From: Nanobdellati archaeon
GTDB taxonomy: Archaea; B1Sed10-29; JAGVWA01
Reading direction: 5' to 3'
NCBI GenBank assembly: GCA_018304505.1
Contig: JAGVWA010000009.1
Span: 1-26,989 of the forward strand
Length of the DNA stretch: 26,989 nt
Shown: positions 1 through 22,497 of the stretch, piece by piece
How the letters are laid out: every line of letters begins with the position of its first letter
How positions within the stretch are numbered: position 1 is the first letter of the stretch
The notes under the pieces: model-generated
Database searches by the model: none
What the model saw: the letters and a program-made list of their open reading frames with translations, nothing else
What the model was told of the DNA's origin: nothing
Position numbers and translations under genes: made by a program

Positions 1-27
1 TCCTGTTCCTGTTCCGCCGTCCCACAT
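1..27 (-). CDS. Start of a Met-Trp small protein, cut by left window edge
   Basis: Only the first nine codons are in the window and they read MWDGGTGTG on the minus strand. The start is supported by a good ribosome binding site (GGAGATGA, about 7 bases upstream) and by a TATA-like stretch at 62-70, 35-43 bases upstream. The Met-Trp beginning matches eight other small genes in this window, which is the main reason for calling it. Its length and fold cannot be seen. Confidence 0.45.
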
Positions 28-61
28 TAGTTGTCATCTCCGGTATAATTATACATCGTAT

Positions 62-70
62 CTATAAATA
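62..70 (-). promoter_or_regulatory. TATA box for the edge Met-Trp gene
   Basis: Read on the minus strand this is TATTTATAG, at a suitable distance upstream of the ATG at 27. It lies just beyond the stop of the winged-helix gene, so the Met-Trp gene probably has its own promoter. Confidence 0.4.
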
Positions 71-85
71 GCTTTTGGTAGACTG

Positions 86-454
86 CTAGAAGTTGACCCT
101 GATCGTGTCATCGTCAAAATCAAACTTTTTTTCGTCGGTGATTTTTCGCCACGCGTCGCTGATTCGGCGCAGGGCGCTTGAGAACTCGGTATTGAGATGG
201 TATCTCATTTGTCGCCTGTCCACTATGCCCAGTGACCTCAGCCTGACGAAGACCTTCTGCATCGTGGCCCGAGAAATTGATTTTTCGTTGCAAATTTTGT
301 TAAGGTGGTGGCCTTCGAGGCCGTTCTCGCTTTGTGAAATCGCTTTAATGAGGTGGGCCGCAGCGAACCTGTACTTGTCCTGCTGAGGGTACAGTATCCG
401 TGTTAATTCCTCCAGGGTCATGCCCGTGCTTGGTTTTTGATGATGAAAATCCAC
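86..454 (-). CDS. Winged-helix DNA-binding protein, 122 aa
   Basis: This is a small, probably cytoplasmic DNA-binding protein. Residues about 45-90 show the helix-turn-helix/wing pattern: a charged helix, then ISRATMQKVFVRLRSLGIVDRR, typical of a recognition helix followed by a wing strand. No ligand domain is visible. The chosen start is GTG at 454, preceded by TGGAG about 8 bases upstream; an ATG at 421 (MTLEELTRIL) would also keep the whole winged helix. It lies between the edge Met-Trp gene and the tRNA, and its upstream region holds the half-palindromic sequence GCACTAAATAGTAAA, so autoregulation is possible. I recognise the fold class but not a named family. Confidence 0.7.
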   Translation of the reverse strand: MDFHHQKPSTGMTLEELTRILYPQQDKYRFAAAHLIKAISQSENGLEGHHLNKICNEKSISRATMQKVFVRLRSLGIVDRRQMRYHLNTEFSSALRRISDAWRKITDEKKFDFDDDTIRVNF

Positions 455-493
455 GTTAATCGCTCCACACCGCGCGTTTTCCGTTGTTGGTTT

Positions 494-510
494 GCACTAA
501 ATAGTAAATC
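494..510. promoter_or_regulatory. Imperfect palindrome, operator-like
   Basis: GCACTAAATAGTAAATC resembles the better palindromes at 1043-1062 and near 2570 (core ACTAATTAGT). It sits about 40-55 bases upstream of the winged-helix gene that starts at 454, in the right place for an autoregulatory operator. Function is inferred from position and similarity only. Confidence 0.3.
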
Positions 511-546
511 AGGGTTTTTAAAACTAGCGGTTCACGTCGGGGGAAT

Positions 547-566
547 AAACCAGCGTGGGTTTAAAC
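547..566. repeat. 20-base direct repeat, copy 1
   Basis: The sequence AAACCAGCGTGGGTTTAAAC occurs exactly here and again at 768-787, flanking the tRNA gene. It contains the palindrome GTTTAAAC and the inverted pair AAACC/GGTTT, so it could be a promoter element (TTTAAA serves as a TATA box elsewhere in the window), a protein binding site or a scar of recombination. Confidence 0.7.
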
Positions 567-595
567 TGAAATTTACTAAACCGAGTTAAGGAAAG

Positions 596-603
596 CTTAT
601 ATT
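596..603 (+). promoter_or_regulatory. TATA box of tRNA-Leu
   Basis: CTTATATT preceded by the purine-rich GGAAAG (a BRE-like element) lies 30-37 bases upstream of the tRNA 5' end, the normal archaeal spacing. Confidence 0.6.
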
Positions 604-632
604 TGTTGAGAAACAAAAGGTAGTTTATAGGT

Positions 633-715
633 GCCAGGGTGCCATAGTCAGGTATTGGGCTCGCCTTAGGAGCGAGTGCCCACGGGCAACGCGGGTTCAA
701 ATCCCGCCCCTGGCG
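633..715 (+). tRNA. tRNA-Leu (anticodon UAG)
   Basis: The acceptor stem is GCCAGGG/CCCTGGC (633-639 with 708-714). The D arm pairs CCA with TGG (642-644/656-658) and has the GG pair in the loop. The anticodon stem is CTCGC/GCGAG with loop CTTAGGA, giving anticodon UAG at 667-669, which reads CUA/CUN leucine codons. The long variable arm (677-688, TGCCC/GGGCA) is as expected for class II tRNA, and the T arm is GCGGG-TTCAAAT-CCCGC (691-707). No CCA is encoded. Position 73 is G rather than the A usual for leucine tRNAs, and flanking bases AGGT/GCCT could extend the acceptor helix (one G-U pair). Leu is the best call from the anticodon; a long variable arm with G73 is otherwise a serine feature. 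Confidence 0.9.
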
Positions 716-767
716 CCTATTTCTCCACCACCCTAATTATGCAATTAGGAGTATAAAAACTTAATTG

Positions 768-787
768 AAACCAGCGTGGGTTTAAAC
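768..787. repeat. 20-base direct repeat, copy 2
   Basis: Exact second copy of AAACCAGCGTGGGTTTAAAC, 53 bases past the tRNA 3' end. A related inverted form (GCGGGTTTAAACC read on the minus strand) occurs near 26190-26202, upstream of the PIN-domain gene. Confidence 0.7.
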
Positions 788-826
788 CAGTTGAAATAGG
801 GCGCGGTAGCAAAATCGTTATAAGGG

Positions 827-946
827 ATGCTTGTTATAATTATCGCGGGCGTTCCAGAAGGAATAGCGAAAGGCAGCACCATAATTGCTAGTTTTAAGGT
901 GAGGAACGATGAAGCTGCCAGTACTATAGTCCGGCAAGCGGGTTGA
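827..946 (+). pseudogene. Possible pyruvate kinase C-terminal remnant
   Basis: A 39-codon frame from ATG at 827 contains LVIIIAGVPEGIAKGST. This resembles the last strands of pyruvate kinases (consensus LVVxTAGVPxGxxGST followed by xxIKVxxV). A TAA stop lies two codons upstream in the same frame and the rest of the enzyme (more than 400 residues) is absent because the tRNA gene lies just upstream. If the match is real, this is a fragment left by deletion or insertion near the tRNA. It could instead be a chance reading frame; the call rests on one short motif. Confidence 0.35.
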
Positions 947-1042
947 AGAAAGAAGAATTTGTAAAGGGAATATAAGTCGACCCACAAGTTTATACTGTTT
1001 AGTGTAAACGGGAATTCAGGGGGTGCGCCCGACAACTGCTTT

Positions 1043-1062
1043 CTTACACTAATTAGTGCAAG
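1043..1062. promoter_or_regulatory. 20-base near-perfect palindrome, likely operator
   Basis: CTTACACTAATTAGTGCAAG is a palindrome with one mismatched pair, and its central 12 bases CACTAATTAGTG are perfect. On its right a TATATATA box begins at 1063, so a protein bound here would touch a plus-strand promoter. A variant with the same ACTAATTAGT core lies upstream of the Met-Trp gene at 2535, and its left half TCTTACACTA recurs inverted three times at 4504-4560. The window encodes two winged-helix proteins that could bind it. Confidence 0.45.
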
Positions 1063-1110
1063 TATATATATGTACCTCTGGGGGGCACGCTTTCTCGACA
1101 ACGGCGTGCC
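1063..1110 (+). promoter_or_regulatory. TATA box followed by a 7-bp hairpin, possible short RNA start
   Basis: TATATATA at 1063-1070 is followed about 15 bases later by the inverted repeat GGCACGC (1084-1090)/GCGTGCC (1104-1110) with a 13-base loop. No open frame with a plausible start follows, so this may drive an untranslated RNA. Downstream limits cannot be set. Confidence 0.25.
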
Positions 1111-1222
1111 TGCAGAAACCGGGTTGTGCTTGGCCCCAGGAAGGGCCTGGCGGAATTTACTGATTAGTAGAAAACGGGGGCAACCACAGCCAGCTGGCAC
1201 CCAGTAGCATGAATTTATAAAC

Positions 1223-1300
1223 TTAAGTAATTTGGGGTTTTACTTAACCTAGGTTAAGTAATTTGGCGTTTTACTTAAGTTGGGTTAAGTGATTGCGGGG
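1223..1300. repeat. Three tandem 31-base repeats
   Basis: TTAAGTAATTTGG begins at 1223 and 1254, and a diverged copy TTAAGTGATTGCG begins at 1285, so the period is exactly 31 bases, close to three helical turns. Each of the first two units carries its own inverted repeat, TTAAGTAA paired with TTTACTTAA around a short G-rich centre. Repeating palindromes on one face of the helix suggest cooperative protein binding. Confidence 0.7.
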
Positions 1301-1341
1301 TTGTGGGCCCCGGCCACCGTTGGTCGGTTATGAAGAATCGT

Positions 1342-1446
1342 CATTATAATGATAAAATGGCATTATAATGGGGGAATGACACTACAATGATAAAATGACA
1401 TTACAATGAAAGAATGACATTATAATGAAGAAACGACATTATAAAC
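1342..1446. repeat. Six 19-base iterons
   Basis: The 10-base palindrome CATTATAATG or a one- to three-base variant starts at 1342, 1361, 1380, 1399, 1418 and 1437 (last copy cut short as CATTATAAA), a strict 19-base period. The linker is AT-rich, of the type ATAAAATGA. There are no unique spacers, so it is not a CRISPR array. Direct iterons of this kind are known from replication origins and from partition or autoregulation sites; which applies here cannot be decided from sequence. Confidence 0.75.
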
Positions 1447-1524
1447 CACACCCGGGCACCCCTCCGAGTACATTAGTGTGTGCTGAGCAAAGAGGACGAG
1501 GGGCACAGGGATTTGTAAATTTTG

Positions 1525-1545
1525 CTGTATACAAAACTTATACAG
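1525..1545. promoter_or_regulatory. Inverted repeat CTGTATA/TATACAG
   Basis: A perfect 7-bp inverted repeat with the 7-base loop CAAAACT lies about 65 bases past the stop of the minus-strand Met-Trp operon. It may be an operator or a transcript-end structure. Confidence 0.3.
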
Positions 1546-1608
1546 TTGTATAAAAAGTTTACTCGATTTGTGCTGTGCTAACAGGGCAGGTCAGCGTTTT
1601 ATTATCCA

Positions 1609-1938
1609 TTATGAGTTTTGCCTTTCAAGCTCTTCAAAGTCCCGCAGGGCTTCGAACGCGCTGCCCTTGGTGGTGTCTGATTCTGCGCTTGTCATGGCTG
1701 TTTTCAGTATACTCCTGATTTCAGCGACGCCTTCCGCCCTGTGAACCAGTGAGAATTGTTGGATCGTTGAGTCATTTCCACTATCGATCCGCAGCGAGAC
1801 GCAGGGCTTGGCGTTGCTGGCGGCGATTTGGAAGCTTCCCGTGTCTAGCCTGACGGTTTGTTCCGGGTCCATTTGCTGGGCCAGCGTCGCGTAGAATCCT
1901 GGCGCAGTGCTTTTTGTGGCTTCAAGTTTCACCCACAT
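1609..1938 (-). CDS. Met-Trp small protein, 109 aa (third gene of operon)
   Basis: The protein begins MWVKLEATKSTAPGF and has no recognised domain, membrane segment or signal peptide. It is soluble-looking, with a predicted helix near residues 15-25, several short strands (TVRLDTGSFQIAAS, CVSLRID) and a charged C-terminal helix ending DFEELERQNS. The ATG at 1938 is preferred over an in-frame start 15 bases upstream because it has GGAGG 7 bases before it and gives the Met-Trp beginning shared by its neighbours. It begins two bases after the stop of the previous gene, so the three Met-Trp genes at 1609-2535 are almost certainly co-transcribed. Function unknown. Confidence 0.75.
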   Translation of the reverse strand: MWVKLEATKSTAPGFYATLAQQMDPEQTVRLDTGSFQIAASNAKPCVSLRIDSGNDSTIQQFSLVHRAEGVAEIRSILKTAMTSAESDTTKGSAFEALRDFEELERQNS

Positions 1939-1940
1939 TT

Positions 1941-2210
1941 TTATTCCTCCCAATCAGTGTCCGAGCCGTCAGGTTCTGGTAAATCAAATGCGCGCATCGC
2001 GACGCTTGCAGGATGAAGCTCAATCATAGGATCGCCGCTATTTGGGACGTGCATTATCTGGCCGCTTCCAAGCAGGTCGAAGCTGCCTCGTTCGGTGTGT
2101 GCCGTGGCGAGGATGCCGCCGCCCCGTGCCGCGATTTCATCTAGGCGCTTTTGAAGCGCGTCTGGCAGTTCATCGTGCCTTTCGTCGTGCCACATTTTAT
2201 CATTCCACAT
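1941..2210 (-). CDS. Met-Trp small protein, 89 aa (second gene of operon)
   Basis: The sequence starts MWNDKMWHDER, so it has two possible ATG starts (2210 and 2195) and both encode Met-Trp. Residues ELPDALQKRLDEIAARG form a likely amphipathic helix. Similar helices follow the N terminus in the Met-Trp proteins at 2215-2535 and 6933-7259. The second half has short strands and a very acidic tail (DGSDTDWEE). The ribosome binding site GGTGA overlaps the stop codon of the upstream gene, which indicates translational coupling. No known family; probably cytoplasmic. Confidence 0.75.
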   Translation of the reverse strand: MWNDKMWHDERHDELPDALQKRLDEIAARGGGILATAHTERGSFDLLGSGQIMHVPNSGDPMIELHPASVAMRAFDLPEPDGSDTDWEE

Positions 2211-2214
2211 TATA

Positions 2215-2535
2215 TCACCAGCGAGTTGGCGTCATTTCGTGGATCGCGTCAAGGGCCCGTTGGGCCTGTTCATGTGGGCTGGCGCCGAGTTCATGAGTTA
2301 ATTCCTGCAGTGCCCGTGTCATGTCGCTATCAGTCAATTTGAGTGTCGTGGTTGTGTCATCAGTGAATGTCTTAATGTAAAGCGCCTCGGGGCCAAGGTA
2401 GTACGCCGTTCCCAGATCGCCTTCAGTGGCACCCCACCTGCCAAGGGCCCGTACCCCCCGGCTGTTGATTTCAGACTGAAACTGCCTTGACAATTCTTGG
2501 TCGCTGCGCGAATGCGCGGTTTGTGTTGTCCACAT
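2215..2535 (-). CDS. Met-Trp small protein, 106 aa (first gene of operon)
   Basis: The sequence starts MWTTQTAHSRSDQEL and has a predicted helix (ELSRQFQSEINSRG), then strands (TAYYLGPEALYIKTF, TTTTLKLTD), then a helix (MTRALQELTHELG); it ends in TRW. GGGGA 9-13 bases upstream supports the ATG at 2535. The upstream region carries the palindromic core ACTAATTAGT at 2572-2581 within a TATA-like sequence, so this operon is probably regulated by the protein that binds the 1043-1062 palindrome. The helix-strand-strand-helix arrangement is loosely shared with other Met-Trp proteins, but identity is low beyond the first two residues. Function unknown. Confidence 0.75.
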   Translation of the reverse strand: MWTTQTAHSRSDQELSRQFQSEINSRGVRALGRWGATEGDLGTAYYLGPEALYIKTFTDDTTTTLKLTDSDMTRALQELTHELGASPHEQAQRALDAIHEMTPTRW

Positions 2536-2565
2536 ATGAGTTCCCCATGAAAAGTGCAGAATAAC

Positions 2566-2587
2566 TTATGCACTAATTAGTATAAGA
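2566..2587. promoter_or_regulatory. Operator-like palindrome upstream of the Met-Trp operon
   Basis: The perfect core ACTAATTAGT at 2572-2581 lies between CTTAT and ATAAG arms. It is 37-46 bases upstream of the ATG at 2535 and overlaps the only TATA-like sequence there, so binding would be expected to block the promoter. Confidence 0.4.
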
Positions 2588-2620
2588 ACGTTTTGGCACT
2601 GCGCTGCAGGCCCTGGGCAA

Positions 2621-3232
2621 TTATTCAAATAGCCGCGACCTTGTCACCGCGCCTGTGAGGAGCATGCCAACGATTCCTACACTGAACAGCAGTATGAAGA
2701 GATACCAGGAGAAGGAGGCCACGTCCTGCAGGCCTGTTGCCGTGCTTACTTGGTTTATTGCCGTGACGTCAGTGACGTGTTCGATGCGTGCTGCTTCTGC
2801 GAACTCGCCGACCGTTAATGCGGCCCCAGCAGGGGCTTTGTAGTCGCCGGTTTCCTTGCCTGCTATGAGGAAGTTGTCGCGCGCCCCGAGCGCAACCCCT
2901 GGGGCTTCAGCGTAAGTGTATTTTGGAATTGTAAAGAAAACGAGGCTGGCGAGGAACACGATGAACACAACGGCCATGGCGGGTTTTATTATTTCCGGCG
3001 AGGCGTGATGACCAACAGTAATTGGCTGGTATTTCCTGTGGTGCCTGAACTGGCCTTTCTTGCTGAGTTTTTCGTACTCTTTGTCAGACAGCTGCAGAAT
3101 CAATGGGCCCGTGTATCCGCAGGTGGTGCAGTAGTAATCCTGAGGTAGGCCGAGGCCGAGCAAGGCGCCGGATTCCTTTCTGAGCGACGCATAATCGAGT
3201 TCCCGAGACCCGCATTTTGGGCAGACCTTCAT
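2621..3232 (-). CDS. Zinc-ribbon membrane protein, 203 aa
   Basis: The N terminus has a zinc ribbon, CPKCGS (Cys 4 and 7) and CTTCGYTG about 30 residues later, followed by a basic/His-rich segment (GQFRHHRKYQPITVGHH). Two hydrophobic segments follow: about residues 86-108 (MAVVFIVFLASLVFFTIPKY) and about 175-196 near the C terminus, with an extracytoplasmic loop of about 65 residues between. The ribbon therefore probably faces the cytoplasm. The start overlaps the upstream stop as ATGA and has GGTGATT before it, so it is co-expressed with the 118-residue gene upstream. I do not recognise a named family; an envelope-associated role is inference. Confidence 0.75.
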   Translation of the reverse strand: MKVCPKCGSRELDYASLRKESGALLGLGLPQDYYCTTCGYTGPLILQLSDKEYEKLSKKGQFRHHRKYQPITVGHHASPEIIKPAMAVVFIVFLASLVFFTIPKYTYAEAPGVALGARDNFLIAGKETGDYKAPAGAALTVGEFAEAARIEHVTDVTAINQVSTATGLQDVASFSWYLFILLFSVGIVGMLLTGAVTRSRLFE

Positions 3233-3585
3233 GAAATCACCCGAACCTGCGCCTGTGCCGCTATCGTGTCTGCAACGCGGTCGTACCTGTCTGGGTGCAT
3301 CATCACCTTTACGTCAACTGGATATGCCCCCGGCTCAATGTTGTAGCGTGCGTACAGCGGAAACGGCACAATTTTCTCCTGGCTGGGCTTTATGTAATCG
3401 ATGCGCACGCGCTTTTCCCGTGTCAGCCCCGTCTTGTCGAAACCGAGCATCAGCGGCGTTTTTGTAATTACACTTACCAACTGCGTTTCATTAGAGCGAT
3501 TTTTGATGATCACATTTAGAATTATCGGCGTCTTCTGGCCCATCATGAATCGAATGGGGTTGAGCCTTGTCGTCACGGAAAGCAT
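3229..3585 (-). CDS. Beta-rich protein with Ig-like strand pattern, 118 aa
   Basis: Alternating strands such as TPIILNVIIKNRSNETQL, VRIDYIKPSQEKIVPFPLYA and IEPGAYPVDVKVMMHP follow the pattern of a CARDB-like or Ig-like beta sandwich (NxSxE..., then PGxYxVxVxV). There is no signal peptide, so it may be cytoplasmic or act with the membrane protein encoded immediately downstream through a 4-base ATGA overlap. Length fits one sandwich domain. The fold assignment is inference from strand pattern only. Confidence 0.65.
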   Translation of the reverse strand: MLSVTTRLNPIRFMMGQKTPIILNVIIKNRSNETQLVSVITKTPLMLGFDKTGLTREKRVRIDYIKPSQEKIVPFPLYARYNIEPGAYPVDVKVMMHPDRYDRVADTIAAQAQVRVIS

Positions 3586-3621
3586 ACAAAGCTATTAAAG
3601 CCGCGGCGGTTTAATAACCTT

Positions 3622-4137
3622 ATGGCGGGCGCGTTGAGGGTTTTTCCAAAAGGCATGCCAGAATCAGAGCACGTAATGAGGACTTTTGTCATCCGTGACA
3701 TGGAGCTCCCCCGGGACGTTCTGCTGACGAAACAGTCGCTGCTCCGTTGGATCGCCTTGTCGTTGGGAATTATCAGCGAAAACGAAACCCGGAACACGAT
3801 CCTCCCGATTCTCGACGCATTACTTCACTTTCAAGTGAAAGAGCAAAAACCAGCATCGGCAAGGCAAGTCAAGGAATACCTCGATTCGCACGGGTGGGGT
3901 ATGCGCGACAAAATCGGCCTTGAGTCAAGGGTCACAGAGAAGGCCATCAGCTACCACCTCTCCAAGTTAGTTGACCGCGGAATCCTGCAGCAAGACAAGC
4001 GCAAGTATTCCTTTGCAAGGGACCCGGAAAACCCTGACATAGCCGGGTTCATTGACTTCTACGTCAAAACAAACACAGGCAAGTCCATTTCCAGGGCAAA
4101 GCGCGCCTTTGAAGAACTCAGGAACCTGTACCATTAG
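3622..4137 (+). CDS. Winged-helix transcriptional regulator, 171 aa
   Basis: The central part, about residues 55-130, reads as a winged-helix domain: NTILPILDALLHFQ, SARQVKEYLDSHGWGM, then VTEKAISYHLSKLVDRGILQ as recognition helix and QDKRKYSF as wing. The N-terminal 50 residues and C-terminal helices (KSISRAKRAFEELRNLYH) may be for dimerisation. An ATG at 3622 with TATTAAAG about 25 bases upstream suggests a leaderless message; ATG at 3655 is an alternative. It is divergent from the 3585 gene and precedes the AT-rich block and 21-base repeats at 4141-4560, which may be its binding sites. Confidence 0.75.
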   Translation: MAGALRVFPKGMPESEHVMRTFVIRDMELPRDVLLTKQSLLRWIALSLGIISENETRNTILPILDALLHFQVKEQKPASARQVKEYLDSHGWGMRDKIGLESRVTEKAISYHLSKLVDRGILQQDKRKYSFARDPENPDIAGFIDFYVKTNTGKSISRAKRAFEELRNLYH

Positions 4138-4140
4138 AAA

Positions 4141-4280
4141 TTTAGACATAATGGTTTTAATTATTATATCATATCATATTAATTAAATTTTATAAAAGAT
4201 AATTTATTAAATTAATTATAACTAATTAATCTTATCCTTTTTAATTTATAAAATCTAATTTATAAAATGTACTTTCTTAG
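4141..4280. other. Extremely AT-rich block, possible DNA-unwinding element
   Basis: Within 4161-4270 only nine of 110 bases are G or C, while flanking DNA is close to balanced or GC-rich. It is built of TTAATT and TTTATAAAAT motifs (TAATTTATAAAAT-like twice at 4242-4269). Such blocks serve as unwinding elements at origins or as strong promoter regions. It adjoins direct repeats and a winged-helix gene. Confidence 0.5.
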
Positions 4281-4503
4281 ACGTTCTTTGGCAGATTCTT
4301 AAACAATATTTGCAAAACCGTGCGTGCGTAAAACGGCCCGGAAAGGCCGAATTTGGGCTTTTCAGGGGTGGCTCGTGCGGTCGGCAGGCCCCCATCGGAG
4401 CTAGCCCCGGTTCAGAGGGTTTGGCTAGCCCAATGGCCTTGGCTGCGCCAGAGTGCGGTGGCGGGGCGCTTGGGCGTGGAGTTGCCCGGCACGTTGCGGG
4501 CGC

Positions 4504-4560
4504 GTAGTGTAAGATTCAAGGGGTGTAGTGTAAGATTCCGCAGGCGTAGTGTAAGACACA
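4504..4560. repeat. Three 21-base direct repeats with operator half-site
   Basis: GTAGTGTAAGA starts at 4504, 4525 and 4546, an exact 21-base period (two helical turns). The inverse TCTTACACTA is identical to the left half of the palindrome at 1042-1051, so the same regulator may bind both. The repeats lie downstream of the Met-Trp gene at 4708 and downstream of the regulator at 3622. Confidence 0.6.
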
Positions 4561-4707
4561 TTGGGCGTGAGCCTGTGTGTTCCCAACATGGCTGAAAGGG
4601 CGCAGAAAGTGAGACTTAGGTCCAAAAGTTCGTGGTACCTTAAAGCCAAAATGTGAGACCTTGGTGGAATTTGGGGCGCTGATTCCAACAGCAATATTGC
4701 AAAGGGG

Positions 4708-4953
4708 CTATTCGGGCTCGTCGGGGGCGCTTTCAAAGATTTCCGGGTCATTGAAGTCCCTAGTGTCCGGCACATCAAGCCGCTCATAGGAGATGCCCCG
4801 AAGGGCCGAGCCACGTTCAGTTAACTCCATGAGCACCTTATTGCCGTTTTCTGCTAGAACAAGCTTGAATTTGCCCTCTGGTGTCCTGAACCGGACTTCT
4901 TGGCCATGCACCAGCTTGCAGTCTTTCCGGTCAATGGCAATTGCACTCCACAT
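4708..4953 (-). CDS. Met-Trp small protein, 81 aa
   Basis: The sequence starts MWSAIAIDRKDCKL. The body is rich in beta strands (GQEVRFRTPEGKFKLVLAEN, NKVLMELT), consistent with a small barrel or sheet, and the last 20 residues are acidic and probably disordered (ending ESAPDEPE). There is no signal peptide or membrane segment. GGTTTATTACC about 25-35 bases upstream is a plausible TATA region, and the gene stands alone. It shares the Met-Trp start and size class with eight other genes here; function unknown. Confidence 0.75.
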   Translation of the reverse strand: MWSAIAIDRKDCKLVHGQEVRFRTPEGKFKLVLAENGNKVLMELTERGSALRGISYERLDVPDTRDFNDPEIFESAPDEPE

Positions 4954-5000
4954 AATTAGTTTCCACGCTTGAAGGTAATAAACCTGCTATCGTGGATTGT

Positions 5001-5561
5001 CTACTTGAGCTTGCTGCTAATGATTAAATCGTGCAAATTGTTCAAGGTTTTCCTGGCCATGTCCTGCTTGGGCTTCAACCCAGGCACAATGCTGCCGGGG
5101 TAAACGAGCTGCGAGTACTCGGCATACAGGTCCTCGAGGTCGTTGTACAGCTGCTCGGCGTCCTTTATTTCGGCTCTGCCGAGCATGTCCATGGCCACCC
5201 GTTTCAACTCACCGATGGCGTCACCCATGCCTGTCAGGTATGCTTCGCTCGGCACATTGAGGTTAGGCAGTTTTCTTGATTCATAGAACGAGATCAAGAT
5301 TGCGAGTTCTGCATATTCCTGGTAAGCTGCGCCAAGCATCTGCGCCACTAATTCAGGGTGCTCCTTGTGGCTGGCCTCGAGCTTCCTGATTTTGCCATCG
5401 ATGGTCTGGAGCTGGGCCTTTGCCTCTGCTGTTTTGCCCTTCTGGAATTCCCTGATGGCCTTGGCGCACGCTGGTATGATTTCGCGTGAGTCCTTTATCA
5501 GCTTGTCCCGGACGTCTTGTATTACGTCGAGCTCTTGTTTAATCTGTGCCAGTTTCGTCAT
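5001..5561 (-). CDS. Translin-family protein, 186 aa
   Basis: The protein is all helical, and its length (186 aa) and pattern fit archaeal translin homologues. It has an N-terminal helix (IKQELDVIQDVRDKLIKDSREIIPACAKAIREFQ), a central E-rich segment (YQEYAELAILISFYES), the LNVPSEAYLTGMGDAIGELKRVAMDML stretch typical of the translin core, and a C-terminal LYAEYSQLVYPGSIVPGLKPKQDMARKTL region. Translins bind single-stranded nucleic acids, and translin/TRAX complexes (C3PO) cleave RNA passenger strands and tRNA leaders; archaeal forms assemble as octamers. The gene overlaps the upstream Met-Trp gene by 23 bases, so they are co-expressed. That link is the only functional hint available for the Met-Trp proteins. 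Confidence 0.85.
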   Translation of the reverse strand: MTKLAQIKQELDVIQDVRDKLIKDSREIIPACAKAIREFQKGKTAEAKAQLQTIDGKIRKLEASHKEHPELVAQMLGAAYQEYAELAILISFYESRKLPNLNVPSEAYLTGMGDAIGELKRVAMDMLGRAEIKDAEQLYNDLEDLYAEYSQLVYPGSIVPGLKPKQDMARKTLNNLHDLIISSKLK

Positions 5562-5781
5562 CGAGAACTTTAGCTCCGGGGTTGTTTATTATACCTTCTG
5601 TACCCCTGATTGCAAACAGGGGCTCGCCGTGTACCCCTGGCTCTAAGGCTAGCGTTTTCGGGTCATACGCCACCAGGTGTTGTACACCCCGCGAATCCCT
5701 GACGCCAACTACCGAGAAATCCGGCCTCTGAGCCCTGATTGTGTTAGTAAGGGCGCTGCCAAAAATGTTGTTTTCCCACAT
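5539..5781 (-). CDS. Met-Trp small protein, 80 aa
   Basis: The sequence starts MWENNIFGSALTNTI. It is mostly short strands (DFSVVGVRDSRGVQHLVAYDP, EPLFAIRGTEG) with a glycine-rich middle and an acidic C terminus (DDETGTD). ATG at 5781 is chosen because GAGGTGA lies 9-16 bases upstream and because it gives Met-Trp; an in-frame GTG at 5793 would overlap the upstream stop. It lies between another Met-Trp gene and the translin gene, whose start it overlaps by 23 bases. No known family. Confidence 0.75.
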   Translation of the reverse strand: MWENNIFGSALTNTIRAQRPDFSVVGVRDSRGVQHLVAYDPKTLALEPGVHGEPLFAIRGTEGIINNPGAKVLDDETGTD

Positions 5782-5789
5782 GTTATTTT

Positions 5790-6080
5790 TCACCTCTTAT
5801 TCGGAATTTTTTCCTCGCCCTGATACAAAAGCGTGTACCGCAGGGCTTCGCCGCGCGCGTCTACCTGGATTTGTTTTACTTCATGGAGCCATGCGTCCCG
5901 GGGCTCGGGCGCGGTGTGGTTCCGGTCGTCGAATTCTAAAGGCACCCAAAACGCGCCTTCATTGACGTTGCGCAGCTCGATTTTGCCATCTTGTTGTTTT
6001 GCAATGACGCGTGACTGGCCGATCATTTCAAATGTCTCGCTGTATAATGGGTGCCCCTCTGTCACCGTTGTTTTCCACAT
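5790..6080 (-). CDS. Met-Trp small protein, 96 aa (first gene of translin operon)
   Basis: The sequence starts MWKTTVTEGHPLYSE. Strands such as SRVIAKQQDGKIELRNV, AFWVPLEFDD and HEVKQIQVDARGEALRYTLLYQ suggest a compact beta protein; a basic tail (EEKIPNKR) ends it. AGAGG 5-9 bases upstream supports ATG at 6080, and CCTTTAAATA at 6111-6120 is a TATA box. The next gene starts within a few bases, so this one leads the operon Met-Trp, Met-Trp, translin. Function unknown. Confidence 0.75.
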   Translation of the reverse strand: MWKTTVTEGHPLYSETFEMIGQSRVIAKQQDGKIELRNVNEGAFWVPLEFDDRNHTAPEPRDAWLHEVKQIQVDARGEALRYTLLYQGEEKIPNKR

Positions 6081-6110
6081 AAGCCTCTAGAGAGTATCTG
6101 TGCAAAAACA

Positions 6111-6120
6111 TATTTAAAGG
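6111..6120 (-). promoter_or_regulatory. TATA box of the Met-Trp/translin operon
   Basis: CCTTTAAATA on the minus strand, 31-40 bases upstream of the ATG at 6080. It is one of several TTTAAA-type TATA boxes in the window. Confidence 0.5.
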
Positions 6121-6157
6121 TTTCTGCATGCGGCGCGGCTCCCCAGAACCCAGGGGG

Positions 6158-6580
6158 TTAAAAAAGCCTTAAGGCATCGTTGGGCCTAATGATTTTTATA
6201 CCTCTAAATGTGTCAATGCTAGTCAAATGCTTGTCATAGCTTATAATGTAGTCTGAAGATGATGCAATGGCACATTCTAAAATTTTGTTATCATCTGGGT
6301 CGTCTTTAACAACTTCAAGTTTCTCATTTGGTTCTATAAGTTTAATAAATGTAAAGAGGATCTCGGTTATCTGCTCAACAGCGTCTGCATTGTAATCAAA
6401 ATCCCTCTTTAGCACATTCTGGAATTCTTGCAGGGCGGCAACAGAAGAAAAAATTTCAACGTCCCTTTCAATGAAGTTATACAGCATCTTCTGAGCAACG
6501 CTGCCGTCCCACAGGATAGCTGAGATAAGTACATTGGTGTCAAGGACGACCCGCAAACTACCGCCGCCTTTGTTTTTCAA
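6158..6580 (-). CDS. PIN-domain ribonuclease toxin, VapC-like
   Basis: The opening strand LRVVLDTNVLISAIL has the first PIN acidic residue (Asp 14). A glutamate follows in the ALQEFQNVL helix, and DDPDDNKILECAIAS carries the next acidic cluster, followed by SDYIISYDKHL with the last aspartate. This is the metal-binding set of PIN nucleases; 140 residues is the usual length for this subgroup. The expected role is cleavage of RNA when free of its antitoxin. It overlaps the upstream AbrB-type gene by 23 bases, the usual antitoxin-toxin order. Confidence 0.88.
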   Translation of the reverse strand: MKNKGGGSLRVVLDTNVLISAILWDGSVAQKMLYNFIERDVEIFSSVAALQEFQNVLKRDFDYNADAVEQITEILFTFIKLIEPNEKLEVVKDDPDDNKILECAIASSSDYIISYDKHLTSIDTFRGIKIIRPNDALRLF

Positions 6581-6827
6581 TAATACCTTGGATGTCTTCC
6601 TCTCTTATTCCCCGTGCTTCCAATCGTTTTTTCCCTTGCTTTGCAATGCTTTTAAGTTTACTGATTAATTCTTCTTTTGAGGGCAGGTCTATGCGCTTGA
6701 GTATAACCATGTCCGCGCTGCTTATTACAGCAAACACCGTGCCTTCTGTTGCATGAATCATTGCTCGTGTGCTCTGGGGAATAACGATTTGGCCTTTCGA
6801 GGACATCCTTACTGTTTCGACACTCAC
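6558..6827 (-). CDS. AbrB/SpoVT-type antitoxin
   Basis: The N-terminal MSVETVRMSSKGQIVIPQS is the classic swapped-hairpin AbrB domain, followed by the degenerate second half (GTVFAVISSADMVILKRI) and a charged helical tail that would bind the PIN toxin. Such proteins neutralise the toxin and repress their own operon. ATG at 6827 is preceded by GGGAGAG. The pair ends in a 23-base overlap with the PIN gene. Confidence 0.88.
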   Translation of the reverse strand: MSVETVRMSSKGQIVIPQSTRAMIHATEGTVFAVISSADMVILKRIDLPSKEELISKLKSIAKQGKKRLEARGIREEDIQGIIEKQRRR

Positions 6828-6932
6828 ATCTCTCCCTCGGTATTCTTACTTTCTTACTTTAAGAATGTTCTATTATATAAAGTTTCCTTCTAGAAGCGGC
6901 GCGGTCAAGTTATCTCAGCTGGGCCCGCGCGG

Positions 6933-7259
6933 TTAGAAGAGCAGCAGCTGCCTTTCTGTGCGATCCCGGCGTGCGAGTTCTGGGTGCCACACTGCTTCTT
7001 GTTTAATCCTGTAGTTTTCCGCGTCACGCTGGGCTTGTGCAGCTGCAACCCGCGCGTCATTCCCGGTCATCTCAAAGGCCTCTCTGACGGCGCCACCCGG
7101 CCCATCGATCGTAAGAATTGTGAACCCGTCTAATTGACCGTCTTTGATAAATGCCCTTGATCGGGGGTGCAGTTGCAGGGCAGGTGTCGAGTTTATTCTG
7201 TCTTGCAGCGTCTGCGGCAGGGTGCCTTTCTCTGCGGTGTGATAACTAATTTTCCACAT
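6933..7259 (-). CDS. Met-Trp small protein, 108 aa
   Basis: The sequence starts MWKISYHTAEKGTLPQTL. The TLPQTLQDRINSTPAL helix resembles ELPDALQKRLDE and ELSRQFQSEINSRG in the Met-Trp proteins at 1941 and 2215, the best sign of relatedness beyond the first two residues. Strands DGFTILTIDG and a long C-terminal helix (NDARVAAAQAQRDAENYRI) follow. GTTAAATACC, overlapping the end of the upstream membrane-protein gene, may be its promoter. No known family. Confidence 0.75.
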   Translation of the reverse strand: MWKISYHTAEKGTLPQTLQDRINSTPALQLHPRSRAFIKDGQLDGFTILTIDGPGGAVREAFEMTGNDARVAAAQAQRDAENYRIKQEAVWHPELARRDRTERQLLLF

Positions 7260-8298: not shown

Positions 8299-10830
8299 TT
8301 AGGCTGCGAGCAGTTGCGCCCCTATCGTTTTCAGGTCTGCACCCAGGATGAACGCTGCTTCCAGCGTGTCCATGGCATCCCTGTATTGGCCTGAACCTGC
8401 GCGCTGTCTTGCGGTATTCACCAGTGTTTTAATTGATGTAAGTAACGCGTCAGCCTGTGTCGTGTCCTTTCCTGCGTTTCTCAATTCAGTCAACTTGGCT
8501 TCAACCTGAGGAATGAGCTGGTCTGCCTCCCCCAAGACCCTGGTTACGCGTTCTTGCAGCGCTTCTGGGTTTATTGAGAACAGCTGGTCCTTGTAGTCCT
8601 CAAAAACGCGCTCGAGTTTTTCGCCAAGCACAAAGGCGGTCCTCAGGATCTGCAGTGCCTCGTCGTCGCGCCCCTGGTTGTGTGAGTCAGTTGCTTCTTG
8701 CACCAGGGCCCTTACCTGTGTCAGTAACGACTCTGCACGGCTTGTGTCGATGCCCCTGGTTTTGAATTCATTCAGGCCCTGTTCAACATCTGGGAGCTTT
8801 ACAGAAGCCAGCGCGAGTGCCTCGTCGACGTCTTGCGTTGTCCCGCCGTCTGCGCCCCCGCTGCCTTGTCTTCTGATGAAGTCCTTTATTCTTTCACCCA
8901 AGGGCATTACTTCTTTTAGGATTCCGAGTGCGGCTTTGTAATTGCCTTGTTCTGTCTGGTCACGGGCTTTTTGAATCGCGTCCCGGATTCTTTGGATCTG
9001 GCTTCGCGCTGATTGTGTATTCACGCCCTGGCCTTCGAGCTGCGTCAGTTTTCGCTCAGCCCCGGGCAGGTTTCCTTCTACGTCCTTAATGATTCTACGC
9101 ACCTCACTAGCAGCATCTTCGTCAGTGTATCCCCTGTCGCGCCCCCTGCTCAGGAGCTTGTCGAGGCGGTCTCCTTTTTCGAATGCCTCTGCAAGGATGC
9201 GCTTGGCTGCTGCCTCGTCCCCTGTGCCGTATGCGGTTTTTACACGCTCCATGATCGCCTTTATTTCACTGAGCAGTTGCCTTGCCTCGGTAACGTCAAC
9301 ACCGCGTTCCGCAAGTCGGTCGATGTCCTCTTCAGTGTCTGCAATGAATATCGGGGCTTCGCGCAGTATCTCAGCTACGCTCATGTCTTCAGGTCTCGGT
9401 CCTTCGAAATCATCATCAAAACCAGCTTGCCTGTGCAGTTCACGGAAGACCTTTTCTGCCTTTTGCCCGAAGCGCTCGAAGTTCCTCAGGATCTTGAAGG
9501 CCTCGTTGTCCTTGCCTTCATCTTGCAGCGCCTTGATTTTGGCGAGTAGGTCTTCTGCTTCTCGAATCAGGGTCCTGCCTTCTGTCACGTCAACGCCGCG
9601 CGATTCTAAGTCATCGAGTTCGAAGCGTGCCTCGCCAATGTGGAATTCAATTTCGGAAATGATGTCTTCTATGTCTTGTGGTTCTGGCCCCATTCCGGGC
9701 CCACCACCTGGTCCACCAGGTCCTCTGCGGTCTTGGCTTCTCCAGAGTTTTTCCATTGCCCTTTGGAATTCCCTTCCCAACCGTTCGAGTTCCCGCAAAA
9801 CACGCTGCGCTTCACGGCCGTCATCAGCTGCCCCGATCTTGTTTTTTCCGTCTGCTATTGCTTGTTTTAGTTTGCTTAACAGGTCGCGCGCCTCTGTGGT
9901 GTCTGCGCCCTGGAACTCCAGGTCATCAAGTTGGAATCCGGCGTCTTCGAGGAAGAACGACATGTCTTCAACGCGCCTGTCGAATTCTTCCCGCGCCTGT
10001 TGTGCGCCCCGCATTTCGTGGCACGCCCTGAAGGCATCGCCGATGTTCCTGCCGCTGCTTCTCCTGGCGTTTTCCAGAAGGTCTTGGGCTTTTTGTGGTG
10101 CGGTTGATGCTATTGATTTTGCCTCTGCAGCCTGCTTTTTCATTTCATCAATAAGTTGCCGTGCCTGTTCACATTCTATGCCCTCTGCCTGCAGGTCTTC
10201 GAGTTCCCATTGCCTTTGTTCAATGTCGTAGAATTCAAAGTCCTCGATGTTCCTCAGCACGTCTTGTGAAAATTGCTGGTCGTTGAAGCCGTTGTCCGGC
10301 CCTTGGCGTGGCTCCGGCATGCGCTGGTCTTGGAAATCGCAGTGCTCCCCTGCATTGTATGTTGACCCGTCAGCGTTTGTACAAATTTCGCGTTTGCACT
10401 GGTTGCCTGCTTGATCAGTAAATGGCTCGCTGTAGCAGCCGCCACCCCCACTGCCGCCAACCGGCGTTTGCGACACGCTGTCGCATTTTTCCTCGTTGAA
10501 GCCGTCAGTGCACTTCGTGATCGTACATCTCCTGTTTGAGTCATAGAAAGATTCGCATATCTTCCCGGAAGTTCCATCTCCAGGTTCTGGTGGGGTCGTC
10601 TCCCCCTGGCAAAATTTGTTTACTTCCTGGCCGTCACAGTATTCTATGTCGCAGCCGGATTCCGTGTCATGCCGCGTTTCGCATACAGGCGCCGGTGGCG
10701 TGGTTGTGTCGCCAGTGTCGTTTCCACCTGTTGCATTTTGGTCTTGCGCTAACATCGGTGTTGAAAACACCAGCGTAAAAAGCATAGCAAGAGTCAATAG
10801 TTTTTTAATCATTTTAAGCCTATTAGTCAT
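8299..10830 (-). CDS. Large secreted repeat protein, 843 aa
   Basis: The start ATG at 10830 is chosen for GAGGTGAT 8-15 bases upstream and because it opens the signal peptide MTNRLKMIKKLLTLAMLFTL, cleaved near MLAQ|D; a longer frame upstream lacks both. Three similar four-Cys modules follow: Cys 50/60/65/74, 92/102/107/116 and 132/145/150/164, each C-x(9-12)-C-x4-C-x(8-13)-C. From about residue 190 to the end there are about seven helical repeats of 85-100 residues with the pattern LxxLxxxGxDxxxAxxLLxxIK, then GxxxxAxxxLxxAxxLG. A Pro/Gly linker (GPGGPGGGPGMGPEP) interrupts them. No C-terminal anchor is visible. A surface-layer-associated or adhesive role is inference. Confidence 0.8.
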   Translation of the reverse strand: MTNRLKMIKKLLTLAMLFTLVFSTPMLAQDQNATGGNDTGDTTTPPAPVCETRHDTESGCDIEYCDGQEVNKFCQGETTPPEPGDGTSGKICESFYDSNRRCTITKCTDGFNEEKCDSVSQTPVGGSGGGGCYSEPFTDQAGNQCKREICTNADGSTYNAGEHCDFQDQRMPEPRQGPDNGFNDQQFSQDVLRNIEDFEFYDIEQRQWELEDLQAEGIECEQARQLIDEMKKQAAEAKSIASTAPQKAQDLLENARRSSGRNIGDAFRACHEMRGAQQAREEFDRRVEDMSFFLEDAGFQLDDLEFQGADTTEARDLLSKLKQAIADGKNKIGAADDGREAQRVLRELERLGREFQRAMEKLWRSQDRRGPGGPGGGPGMGPEPQDIEDIISEIEFHIGEARFELDDLESRGVDVTEGRTLIREAEDLLAKIKALQDEGKDNEAFKILRNFERFGQKAEKVFRELHRQAGFDDDFEGPRPEDMSVAEILREAPIFIADTEEDIDRLAERGVDVTEARQLLSEIKAIMERVKTAYGTGDEAAAKRILAEAFEKGDRLDKLLSRGRDRGYTDEDAASEVRRIIKDVEGNLPGAERKLTQLEGQGVNTQSARSQIQRIRDAIQKARDQTEQGNYKAALGILKEVMPLGERIKDFIRRQGSGGADGGTTQDVDEALALASVKLPDVEQGLNEFKTRGIDTSRAESLLTQVRALVQEATDSHNQGRDDEALQILRTAFVLGEKLERVFEDYKDQLFSINPEALQERVTRVLGEADQLIPQVEAKLTELRNAGKDTTQADALLTSIKTLVNTARQRAGSGQYRDAMDTLEAAFILGADLKTIGAQLLAA

Positions 10831-10868
10831 TAGTAATATCACCTCTGCTTTTCCTTTTGGCGCTTGGA

Positions 10869-10876
10869 ATATAAAA
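10869..10876 (-). promoter_or_regulatory. TATA box of the surface-protein operon
   Basis: TTTTATAT on the minus strand, 39-46 bases upstream of the ATG at 10830, leaving a short leader that carries the ribosome binding site. Confidence 0.5.
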
Positions 10877-10923
10877 GGGCAACCCAGGCCGCGGGGGTTT
10901 TTTAGGAATTTTTTGGAAAAATG

Positions 10924-10929
10924 TTTAAA
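10924..10929 (+). promoter_or_regulatory. TTTAAA box of dtdA
   Basis: TTTAAA within GTTTAAAC, 25-30 bases upstream of the ATG at 10954, so dtdA is probably leaderless. An in-frame ATG at 10921 would lie upstream of this box and is therefore unlikely. Confidence 0.45.
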
Positions 10930-10953
10930 CCCCCTGCTGTATATAATAGTGTC

Positions 10954-11730
10954 ATGAAAGCGATAGTGTGCAGCACCCGGGAACAGGCCAGCATGAACCT
11001 GTTCGAGAGATTCCTTGAAAAGGGGTTTGATGCTACTGATTTGAGTTTCAATGGGTATGGTATCTATGAATACAACGACGTTATGCTGGTTCGCACTGAC
11101 GAGCCCATAACGCACGCAGACTCGATAAATGGCCTTGATGCTTCCGAAATTGTGTTTGCGAGCCCCCATACTGCGGCCTCAGGCATTCACGCCTTCGCAG
11201 TGCACTTCATCGGAAATTTTGGAAGTGCCGACCTGGGCGGCTTGCCCCAGAAGCTCAGTCAAGCAAACGCGAACACCGCCCGGAACATTTTTAAAGAAAT
11301 CCAGAAACGCATGCCGGAGGGCTTTATTGCGACCATCGAATGCACGCATCACGGTCCGGACATTGACACCCCGGTGTGTTTTGCAGAACTCGGCAGCAGC
11401 GCGGCACAGTGGGGCAATACAGGTGCGGCGAGCTATCTGGCCGACTGCATCATCGCAGGCATAATGAGCAATGAAGAAAAACCGACAGCGATCGCCATTG
11501 GGGGGAATCATTATGCCGCGAAATTCACTGCGCTTATGGGTGAATATGCCCTTGGTCACATCTGTCCAAAATACAACCAGCAAAACCTGAACAAGGAAAT
11601 GATTCAGCAGATGATTGATAAAACCGTACCCGGGCCTGAAAAAATATTTATCGACAAGAACGGCGTGACCGGAAAAACGGAGTTGTTAAAAATGCTCAGC
11701 GCGTTTGACTTACAGATAGTGCAGATTTGA
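10954..11730 (+). CDS. dtdA: D-aminoacyl-tRNA deacylase, archaeal type
   Basis: This enzyme hydrolyses D-amino acids from mischarged tRNA in the cytoplasm. It shows the DtdA landmarks: VFASPH near the N terminus, then ATIECTHHGPD and AIGGNHYAAKFT (the usual GGGHY has Asn in place of the third Gly). It is about 258 residues, close to the family length. The start at MKAIVCSTRE matches family N termini; a further in-frame ATG 33 bases upstream is ignored because of the promoter position. It is divergent from the surface-protein operon and followed by the MFS gene after 26 bases. Confidence 0.9.
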   Translation: MKAIVCSTREQASMNLFERFLEKGFDATDLSFNGYGIYEYNDVMLVRTDEPITHADSINGLDASEIVFASPHTAASGIHAFAVHFIGNFGSADLGGLPQKLSQANANTARNIFKEIQKRMPEGFIATIECTHHGPDIDTPVCFAELGSSAAQWGNTGAASYLADCIIAGIMSNEEKPTAIAIGGNHYAAKFTALMGEYALGHICPKYNQQNLNKEMIQQMIDKTVPGPEKIFIDKNGVTGKTELLKMLSAFDLQIVQI

Positions 11731-21249: not shown

Positions 21250-22497
21250 ATGTTGTACAGTGAAATCCAAAAGGTAGACCCTGAGGTGTACGAGTCGTTG
21301 AAAAACGAGCTGCAGCGCCAGCGAAACAGTTTGGAAATGATCGCGTCAGAAAACTTCACAAGCCCGGCAGTAATGGAAGCCCAAGGCTCAATAATGACAA
21401 ACAAGTACGCGGAAGGCCTCCCAGGCAAGCGATACTACGGAGGCTGTGAATTCCATGACCAGGTAGAGCAGCTGGCAATCGACCGCGCCAAGGCCCTGTT
21501 CAAGGCAGACCACGCAAACGTTCAGCCACACTCTGGCAGCAACGCGAATTTCGCGGCCTACTTTTCAGTCCTAGAAGCGGGCGACAAAATTCTCGGCCCG
21601 CTTCTTCCGCATGGGGGGCACTTAACGCACGGCTCGCCAGTGAACTTCTCTGGTAGGCTCTTCAAGTTCTCGCAATACACACTGAATCAGGACACGCAGC
21701 GTTTTGAACCAGACGACATACTCGAAATCGCAAGACGAGAAAAACCCAAACTCATCCTGACAGGCTATTCCGCATACCCCAGAAAAATAGAATTCGAAAA
21801 GTGGCGTGCAGTTGCAGATGAAGTCGGCGCGGTGCTGATGGCCGACATCGCGCACATCGCAGGCCTCATTGCAGCAGAACAGCATCCGCAGCCCTTTCCG
21901 CACTGTGACATCGTGACGACCACGACGCACAAAACCCTGCGGGGGCCGCGAGGCGGCATAGTAATGTGCACTGAGAAGTATGCGAAGCAAGTTGACAAAA
22001 CCGTGTTCCCTGGCTTCCAAGGCGGGCCATTGATGCACGCCATTGCCGGAAAAGCAATAGCGCTTAAGGAGGCGCAGTCAGCAGAGTTCAGAAAATACGC
22101 GGAGCAGGTCGTGAAAAATGCGCATGCCCTGGCAGATGAACTAATGAGCAACGGCTTCAACCTCGTAACCGGCGGCACCGATAGTCATCTAATGTTAGTG
22201 AACCTCGAGTCAAAATCAATTACAGGAAAGGAAGCCGAGGTCCTGTTAGAGCAAGTCGGGATAACGGCGAACAAGAACATGGTCCCTGACGACAAGCAGA
22301 GCCCGTTTGTCACCTCAGGAATTCGGTTGGGCACCCCGGCCATCACAAGCCGCGGTATGAAGGCAGACCAAATGAGGCAGATCGGCGAGTTCATTTCAAG
22401 GACAATGAACTATCGCAATGACGAAGAACAGAAGAGAAAAATCAAAAACGAGGTTCTGGAAATCTGCAAGGCGTTCCCGTTGTATCCTGATTTTTAG
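21250..22497 (+). CDS. glyA: Serine hydroxymethyltransferase, 415 aa
   Basis: This PLP enzyme converts serine plus tetrahydrofolate (or tetrahydropterin) to glycine and the methylene derivative. Conserved features run the full length: [52 protein letters not shown] and [14 protein letters not shown] with the PLP Lys at 228. Length is normal. GGTGAAC 8-14 bases upstream supports the ATG at 21250, and it starts 24 bases after thyX, so the two are an operon linking one-carbon supply to dTMP synthesis. Confidence 0.95.

Follow-up and report, generated by a model that had tools for sequence, protein, structure and literature searches.

Several described protein sets are recognized by a short signature, among them the effector families that carry the RxLR motif in oomycetes or the PEXEL motif, and the WXG100 substrates of type VII secretion. 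In archaea, a large share of the genome may consist of dark matter islands, composed of small, narrowly distributed and fast-evolving genes; these islands are heterogeneous, with an abundance of mobile elements, defence genes and genes for membrane proteins (Makarova et al. 2014; PMC4158269). Here, a stretch of 26,989 nucleotides from a Nanobdellati archaeon (contig JAGVWA010000009.1, hereafter the window) was analysed, in which a series of small genes encodes proteins that all begin with Met-Trp. The window is contig C11 of a 21-contig genome of 917,116 bases, estimated to be 93% complete with 0.2% contamination; its small size and archaeal genes suggest an archaeon of DPANN type. Genes were called with our own dicodon model on the whole stitched genome, which yielded 1,048 genes with predicted starts, and comparisons were made with three relatives sampled in part, at 0.3-0.4 Mb each (G003 and G004 from the same order, G009 from the same class), and with a control set of 80 bacterial and archaeal loci treated with the same gene caller.

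The initial annotation listed eight complete Met-Trp genes in the window and a ninth cut by its edge. All eight open reading frames were recovered on the minus strand with the starts it had given, and the ninth was found at full length on contig C13, which at its right end shares 99 nt with the left end of the window. Eight such starts in about 40 genes exceed chance expectation (p = 2e-9 at a Trp background of 0.85%), and the excess extends far beyond the window. Genome-wide, Met-Trp starts were found in 91 of the 1,048 genes, and their distribution was strongly dependent on size: 81 of 367 genes of 40-129 aa (22%), 8 of 203 genes of 130-199 aa, and 2 of 478 genes of at least 200 aa (0.4%), with a Fisher p = 2e-29 between the shortest and the longest classes. 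By comparison, a single Met-Trp start occurred among 295 short genes of the three relatives, and the control loci presented 2/195 at 40-129 aa and 3/443 at 40-199 aa; a second Fisher test on the enrichment, given with these comparisons, yielded p = 1e-21. Chance or an artefact of start calling was ruled out by the short genes in which an in-frame stop closely upstream fixes the start, 40 of 183 of which begin with Met-Trp, together with the 3/443 obtained by the same caller in the control loci.

The enrichment is specific to this lineage, since none of 216 genes of 70-129 aa in the relatives sampled from its order and class begins with Met-Trp. A pattern scan of 394 archaeal genomes returned 18 matches in the genome under study, against 2 in the reversed control, which is the highest density among them as estimated from rounded genome sizes; three other genomes appeared mildly enriched, and their sampling revealed no Met-Trp genes. 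Among the 91 calls, RNA polymerase subunit P (C1_32232), an AAA ATPase (C13_17136) and a 287-aa protein (C19_32915) are unrelated to the class, and about 13 further members were missed or mis-started by the caller, according to our own count from the lists. The class thus amounts to about 100 genes, mostly encoding 70-130 aa, or about one gene in ten of the genome.

The members are real protein genes, as indicated by their constrained codon-position pattern, positive coding scores, Shine-Dalgarno (SD) motifs and genome-like codon habits. In eight paralogue pairs, mismatches per codon position 1, 2 and 3 were 0.50, 0.40 and 0.65, the order expected under coding constraint, and codon usage followed that of the rest of the genome with a slightly lower silent-site GC. 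The initial annotation had assigned each member its own ribosome binding site, which holds for many of them and not for all: SD-like motifs precede 63% of Met-Trp genes, compared with 43-47% of other genes genome-wide, and none is obvious before the gene starting at 7259. Contamination does not account for the contigs involved, because the members share them with ordinary conserved genes.

No counterpart of these genes was found elsewhere. None of the 88 members examined had a match in the sampled relatives or control loci, compared with 98 of 269 other short genes; the only one of 89 short Met-Trp genes with a match was the RNA polymerase subunit excluded above. Pfam, NCBIfam, PHROG and PADLOC profiles gave no convincing match across the 88 members, the one convincing match being that of the same RNA polymerase subunit P outside the class. 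Profiles built from two subfamilies found convincing matches only in their own genome when relatives were searched, and nothing convincing in the PDB. The earlier statement that no described family has this definition also stands for the open-licence literature on Met-Trp N-termini, DPANN effectors and lineage-specific N-terminal motif families, in which no such class was described.

Although the bodies had been described as differing almost completely, which is nearly right, weak mutual homology was detectable. BLAST among the 91 calls linked few genes beyond pairs and triples and produced 11 groups and 71 singletons, a few groups being joined through unrelated proteins lacking Met-Trp. With the first six residues trimmed, phmmer retrieved 18 matches between Met-Trp proteins and none to other short genes at E<=0.01; at E<=0.1 the counts were 32 and 8, where a ratio of 0.19 to 1 is expected at random. 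The similarity is thus diffuse but particular to the class, at least part of which shares common ancestors and appears to form one very diverged family. Against this background of divergence, Trp2 was retained in 8/8 paralogue pairs of 28-46% identity, in which other Trp residues were mostly unaligned, and no homologue lacking Met-Trp was seen. The information content peaked at residue 2 with 6.7 bits, was 0.3-0.6 bits over residues 3-7 against a null of 0.17, came close to random by residues 8-9 and was mostly background beyond; the signal at residues 3-7 may partly reflect ordinary start-proximal codon bias. Conservation is thus confined to residues 2-7 and extreme at residue 2 alone, as a tag predicts. 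These findings, together with the genome-wide enrichment, support the proposal that Met-Trp is under selection in a family that is lineage-specific and diverges fast, and selection on the N-terminal Met-Trp itself is the simplest reading, because conservation is narrow, is kept in every paralogue and no member has lost it.

The reading that we favour, tentatively and at slightly less than an even chance, is that of a lineage-specific, fast-diverging class whose Met-Trp terminus acts as a recognition tag, perhaps on effector-like proteins. The Met-Trp terminus would itself be the selected feature. Methionine aminopeptidase leaves Met in place before a bulky residue, so the mature protein should keep Met-Trp, which would then serve for docking or sorting by a common partner, such as an export or loading factor, an N-terminal acetyltransferase or a chaperone, leaving the body free to diverge.

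The strongest rival, which carries a sizeable minority of the probability, holds that the class is one ancient and extremely diverged family with a common fold, in which Trp2 would be buried as an anchor and hence structural. The weak similarity that members retain outside the first six residues speaks for it, as do a hairpin-like motif TD(D/G)xxGxHxT followed by a helix, common to several of the mutually matching members, and the presence of I or V at residue 4 after Trp2 in about a quarter of members. Two window members were modelled, each as a single sequence, which is weak evidence. The model of 2215-2535 (pLDDT 68), with a helix, four strands and two helices, would suit such a fold; Foldseek found no match for it below E 0.06, and its best VIA Z of 7.6 is no higher than unrelated models commonly reach, which left it without a fold assignment. 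Conversely, a buried Trp2 fits poorly with conservation that fades by residues 8-9 without a fixed hydrophobic pattern, and with members that on inspection appear all-helical (C8_23218 to C8_24175, C8_42775 to C8_43691) while others are beta-rich. Moreover, residues 1-8 are unordered in both models: the first 8-9 residues fall below pLDDT 50 in each (residues 1-9 in that of 2215-2535), so that the models agree with, rather than prove, a free N-terminus.

Selection might alternatively act on DNA or RNA, with ATGTGG or its context serving in initiation, as a repressor site or in recombination, and Trp being incidental. In a crude consensus scan, the lead Met-Trp genes had a TATA-like box more commonly at 36-47 nt upstream than at the 28-31 nt leaderless spacing dominant elsewhere (p = 2e-4), so that their starts follow a short leader instead of being leaderless. 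This leadered promoter spacing and the somewhat commoner SD motifs would be compatible with a nucleic-acid signal. It is disfavoured and very improbable all the same: the flanking bases are unconserved, GTG is also used as first codon before TGG so that no DNA hexamer is fixed, and both the lysine depletion reported below and the mutual protein similarity would be left unexplained.

Traits independent of the Met-Trp selection also show that the members form a coherent class, among them the lack of matches and the promoter spacing given above and the clustering described below. Lysine accounts for 4.6% of their residues, against 9.4% in other soluble proteins; in the comparison with short soluble orphans the figures are 4.8% and 11.0%, and the medians are 4.2% in members and 10.3% in comparison proteins (p = 6e-32). 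Arginine is raised (7.7-7.9%), and the class is mostly acidic, with a median pI of 5.1 against 8.1 for other short genes. GC bias was ruled out as the source of the low lysine, since the silent-site GC of members is lower, not higher, than in other genes. It is improbable, if conceivable, that Met-Trp controls turnover or modification instead of sorting, being N-degron-like or a substrate of the N-terminal acetylation of Met-hydrophobic termini, with the class consisting of regulators of controlled lifetime. The retention of Met before a bulky residue 2 accords with this, as does lysine depletion, a known way of altering conjugation-dependent turnover. Nevertheless, only Trp is in excess at residue 2, without Phe, Tyr, Leu or Ile, a range narrower than known acetyltransferase or N-degron specificities.

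The genes are also clustered, with 34 adjacent Met-Trp pairs compared with 7.7 expected, and are spread over at least 56 loci, often as arrays of two or three same-strand genes set between ordinary genes; 18 of the 20 multi-gene loci have all their members on one strand. No recurring neighbour stood out as a partner around these loci. Genes that are small, acidic, orphan and clustered are reminiscent of accessory cargo and of the 'dark matter' genes of archaea (PMC4158269), which could suggest mobile or viral cargo, with anti-defence or defence functions, dispersed in the genome and owing its Met-Trp to the founding element. This origin is considered quite improbable, given that no integrases were seen near the loci, which are dispersed among ordinary genes as single members, pairs or triplets, that no significant PHROG or PADLOC pattern emerged across the 88 members, and that two member profiles had no relatives in viral contigs.

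More speculatively, the tagged proteins might constitute an effector-like set for conflict or contact with other cells, a role proposed because rapid turnover, lysine depletion and the absence of orthologues fit it; the loss of lysine would then avoid ubiquitin-like conjugation and proteolysis. The 0.92 Mb genome encodes eight ATPases of the T2SSE type, for secretion or pili, that pass the Pfam cut-off (L029, L051, L053 and others; contigs C5, C7, C9, C10, C19 and C20) as well as an E1-like protein, which makes export or lysine conjugation possible and demonstrates neither. No tail-sheath match indicative of a contractile injection system was obtained. Several observations weigh against the recognition tag and the role built on it. 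No reader of the tag was identified. Signal peptides are absent, as the initial annotation had stated, and 87 of the 88 members have no membrane-like segment, so export would need an unknown route. The secreted-like proteins of the genome are likewise lysine-poor (4.9%), and low lysine may therefore reflect location instead of the avoidance of conjugation. In addition, several members read MWx[IVT]..., possibly a strand with Trp2 in the core, and a ThiS-like match lay below its cut-off. The boldest form of the tag reading, which is rather unlikely, would be an undescribed archaeal N-terminal sorting code, with Met-Trp on about 10% of the genes, lysine-poor and fast-evolving bodies, one reading machinery, and an effector-like arsenal akin to RxLR/PEXEL.

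Within the window, the members and neighbouring features are arranged as listed in the table. The minus-strand orientation noted earlier applies to the window and is a local bias, both strands being used genome-wide. Of the three members credited with a helix of the type LPxxLQxRI, those starting at 2210 and 7259 present it clearly, and that starting at 2535 only weakly.

Table. Met-Trp genes and other features of the window.
Feature	Position	Strand	Details
Met-Trp gene, 5′ end (MWDGGTGTG...), cut by contig edge	1..27	-	complete as C13:20871-21086, 71 aa, via the overlap
tRNA-Leu gene	633-717	+	
Tandem repeats, 31-nt unit	1223-1302		2.5 copies, holding TTACTTAACC/TTAAGTAA palindromes
Tandem repeats, 19-nt unit	1342-1444		5.4 copies, with CATTATAATG
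Met-Trp protein, 109 aa	1609..1938	-	SD GGGAGG; no family match
Met-Trp protein, 89 aa	1941..2210	-	MWNDKMWHDERHDELPDALQKRL, two successive in-frame Met-Trp; gene call
Met-Trp protein, 106 aa	2215..2535	-	weak homology to C13_11542; single-sequence model
Repeat, 21-nt unit	4502-4556		GCGTAGTGTAAGATTCAACGG, 2.6 copies
Met-Trp protein, 81 aa	4708..4953	-	gene call
Translin-family protein	5001-5561		Pfam PF01997, E 1.5e-10
Met-Trp protein, 80 aa	5539..5781	-	SD AGGTGA
Met-Trp protein, 96 aa	5790..6080	-	first in two-gene array, own TATA-like box
PIN-domain toxin and small upstream partner	6158-6827		
Met-Trp protein, 108 aa	6933..7259	-	LPQTLQDRI helix; weak homology to 5790-6080
956-aa open reading frame	8299-11169		sub-threshold Laminin_II match only
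Serine hydroxymethyltransferase (GlyA)	21250-22497		
Met-Trp protein, 80 aa	25399..25641	-	low-confidence model, pLDDT 59.8

Other elements lie among these genes. The two tandem repeats between the 109-aa Met-Trp gene and the tRNA-Leu gene are intergenic and resemble operator-like site arrays, and the 21-nt repeat is downstream of the 81-aa Met-Trp gene. The Translin-family gene sits directly between Met-Trp genes. Also between such genes is the PIN-domain toxin, whose partner looks like an AbrB/MazE-type antitoxin and had no Pfam match. Farther along, the 956-aa frame presents long helical, repeat-like C-terminal stretches, and translation probably begins at an internal ATG that precedes MIKKLLTLAMLFTLVFSTPMLAQ, a signal peptide. 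GlyA is closer to bacterial and methanogen copies than to many archaeal ones and was probably acquired horizontally; a scan of named genomes with it gave mostly bacterial matches.

A tenth of a reduced genome devoted to one protein class points to something central to the life of the organism. Should Met-Trp act as a tag, the sorting signal would be unusually short and would offer a direct way into the dealings of such archaea with other cells; should it be structural, the gene family would still be a striking one, held together by two residues. As in RxLR effector families, a large lineage-specific set without orthologues shares a short N-terminal motif on diverged bodies. The Met-Trp members differ from them in having no secretion signal, in a motif of two residues at the very N-terminus, and in being archaeal soluble proteins of cytosolic type. 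WXG100 proteins are also of about 100 residues, without signal peptide and with a Trp-containing signature, but their WxG forms a central turn in a helical hairpin, whereas here Trp is residue 2 and, at E<=0.01, none of the 88 members matched the WXG100 profile. Among general accounts, that of the dark matter islands comes closest, whose genes are likewise small and narrowly distributed, in keeping with the lack of matches for any member in the sampled relatives and control loci. Unlike those islands, the Met-Trp class is not enriched in membrane or secreted proteins, and it constitutes one coherent soluble class with an invariant Met-Trp terminus, distributed over many small scattered loci.
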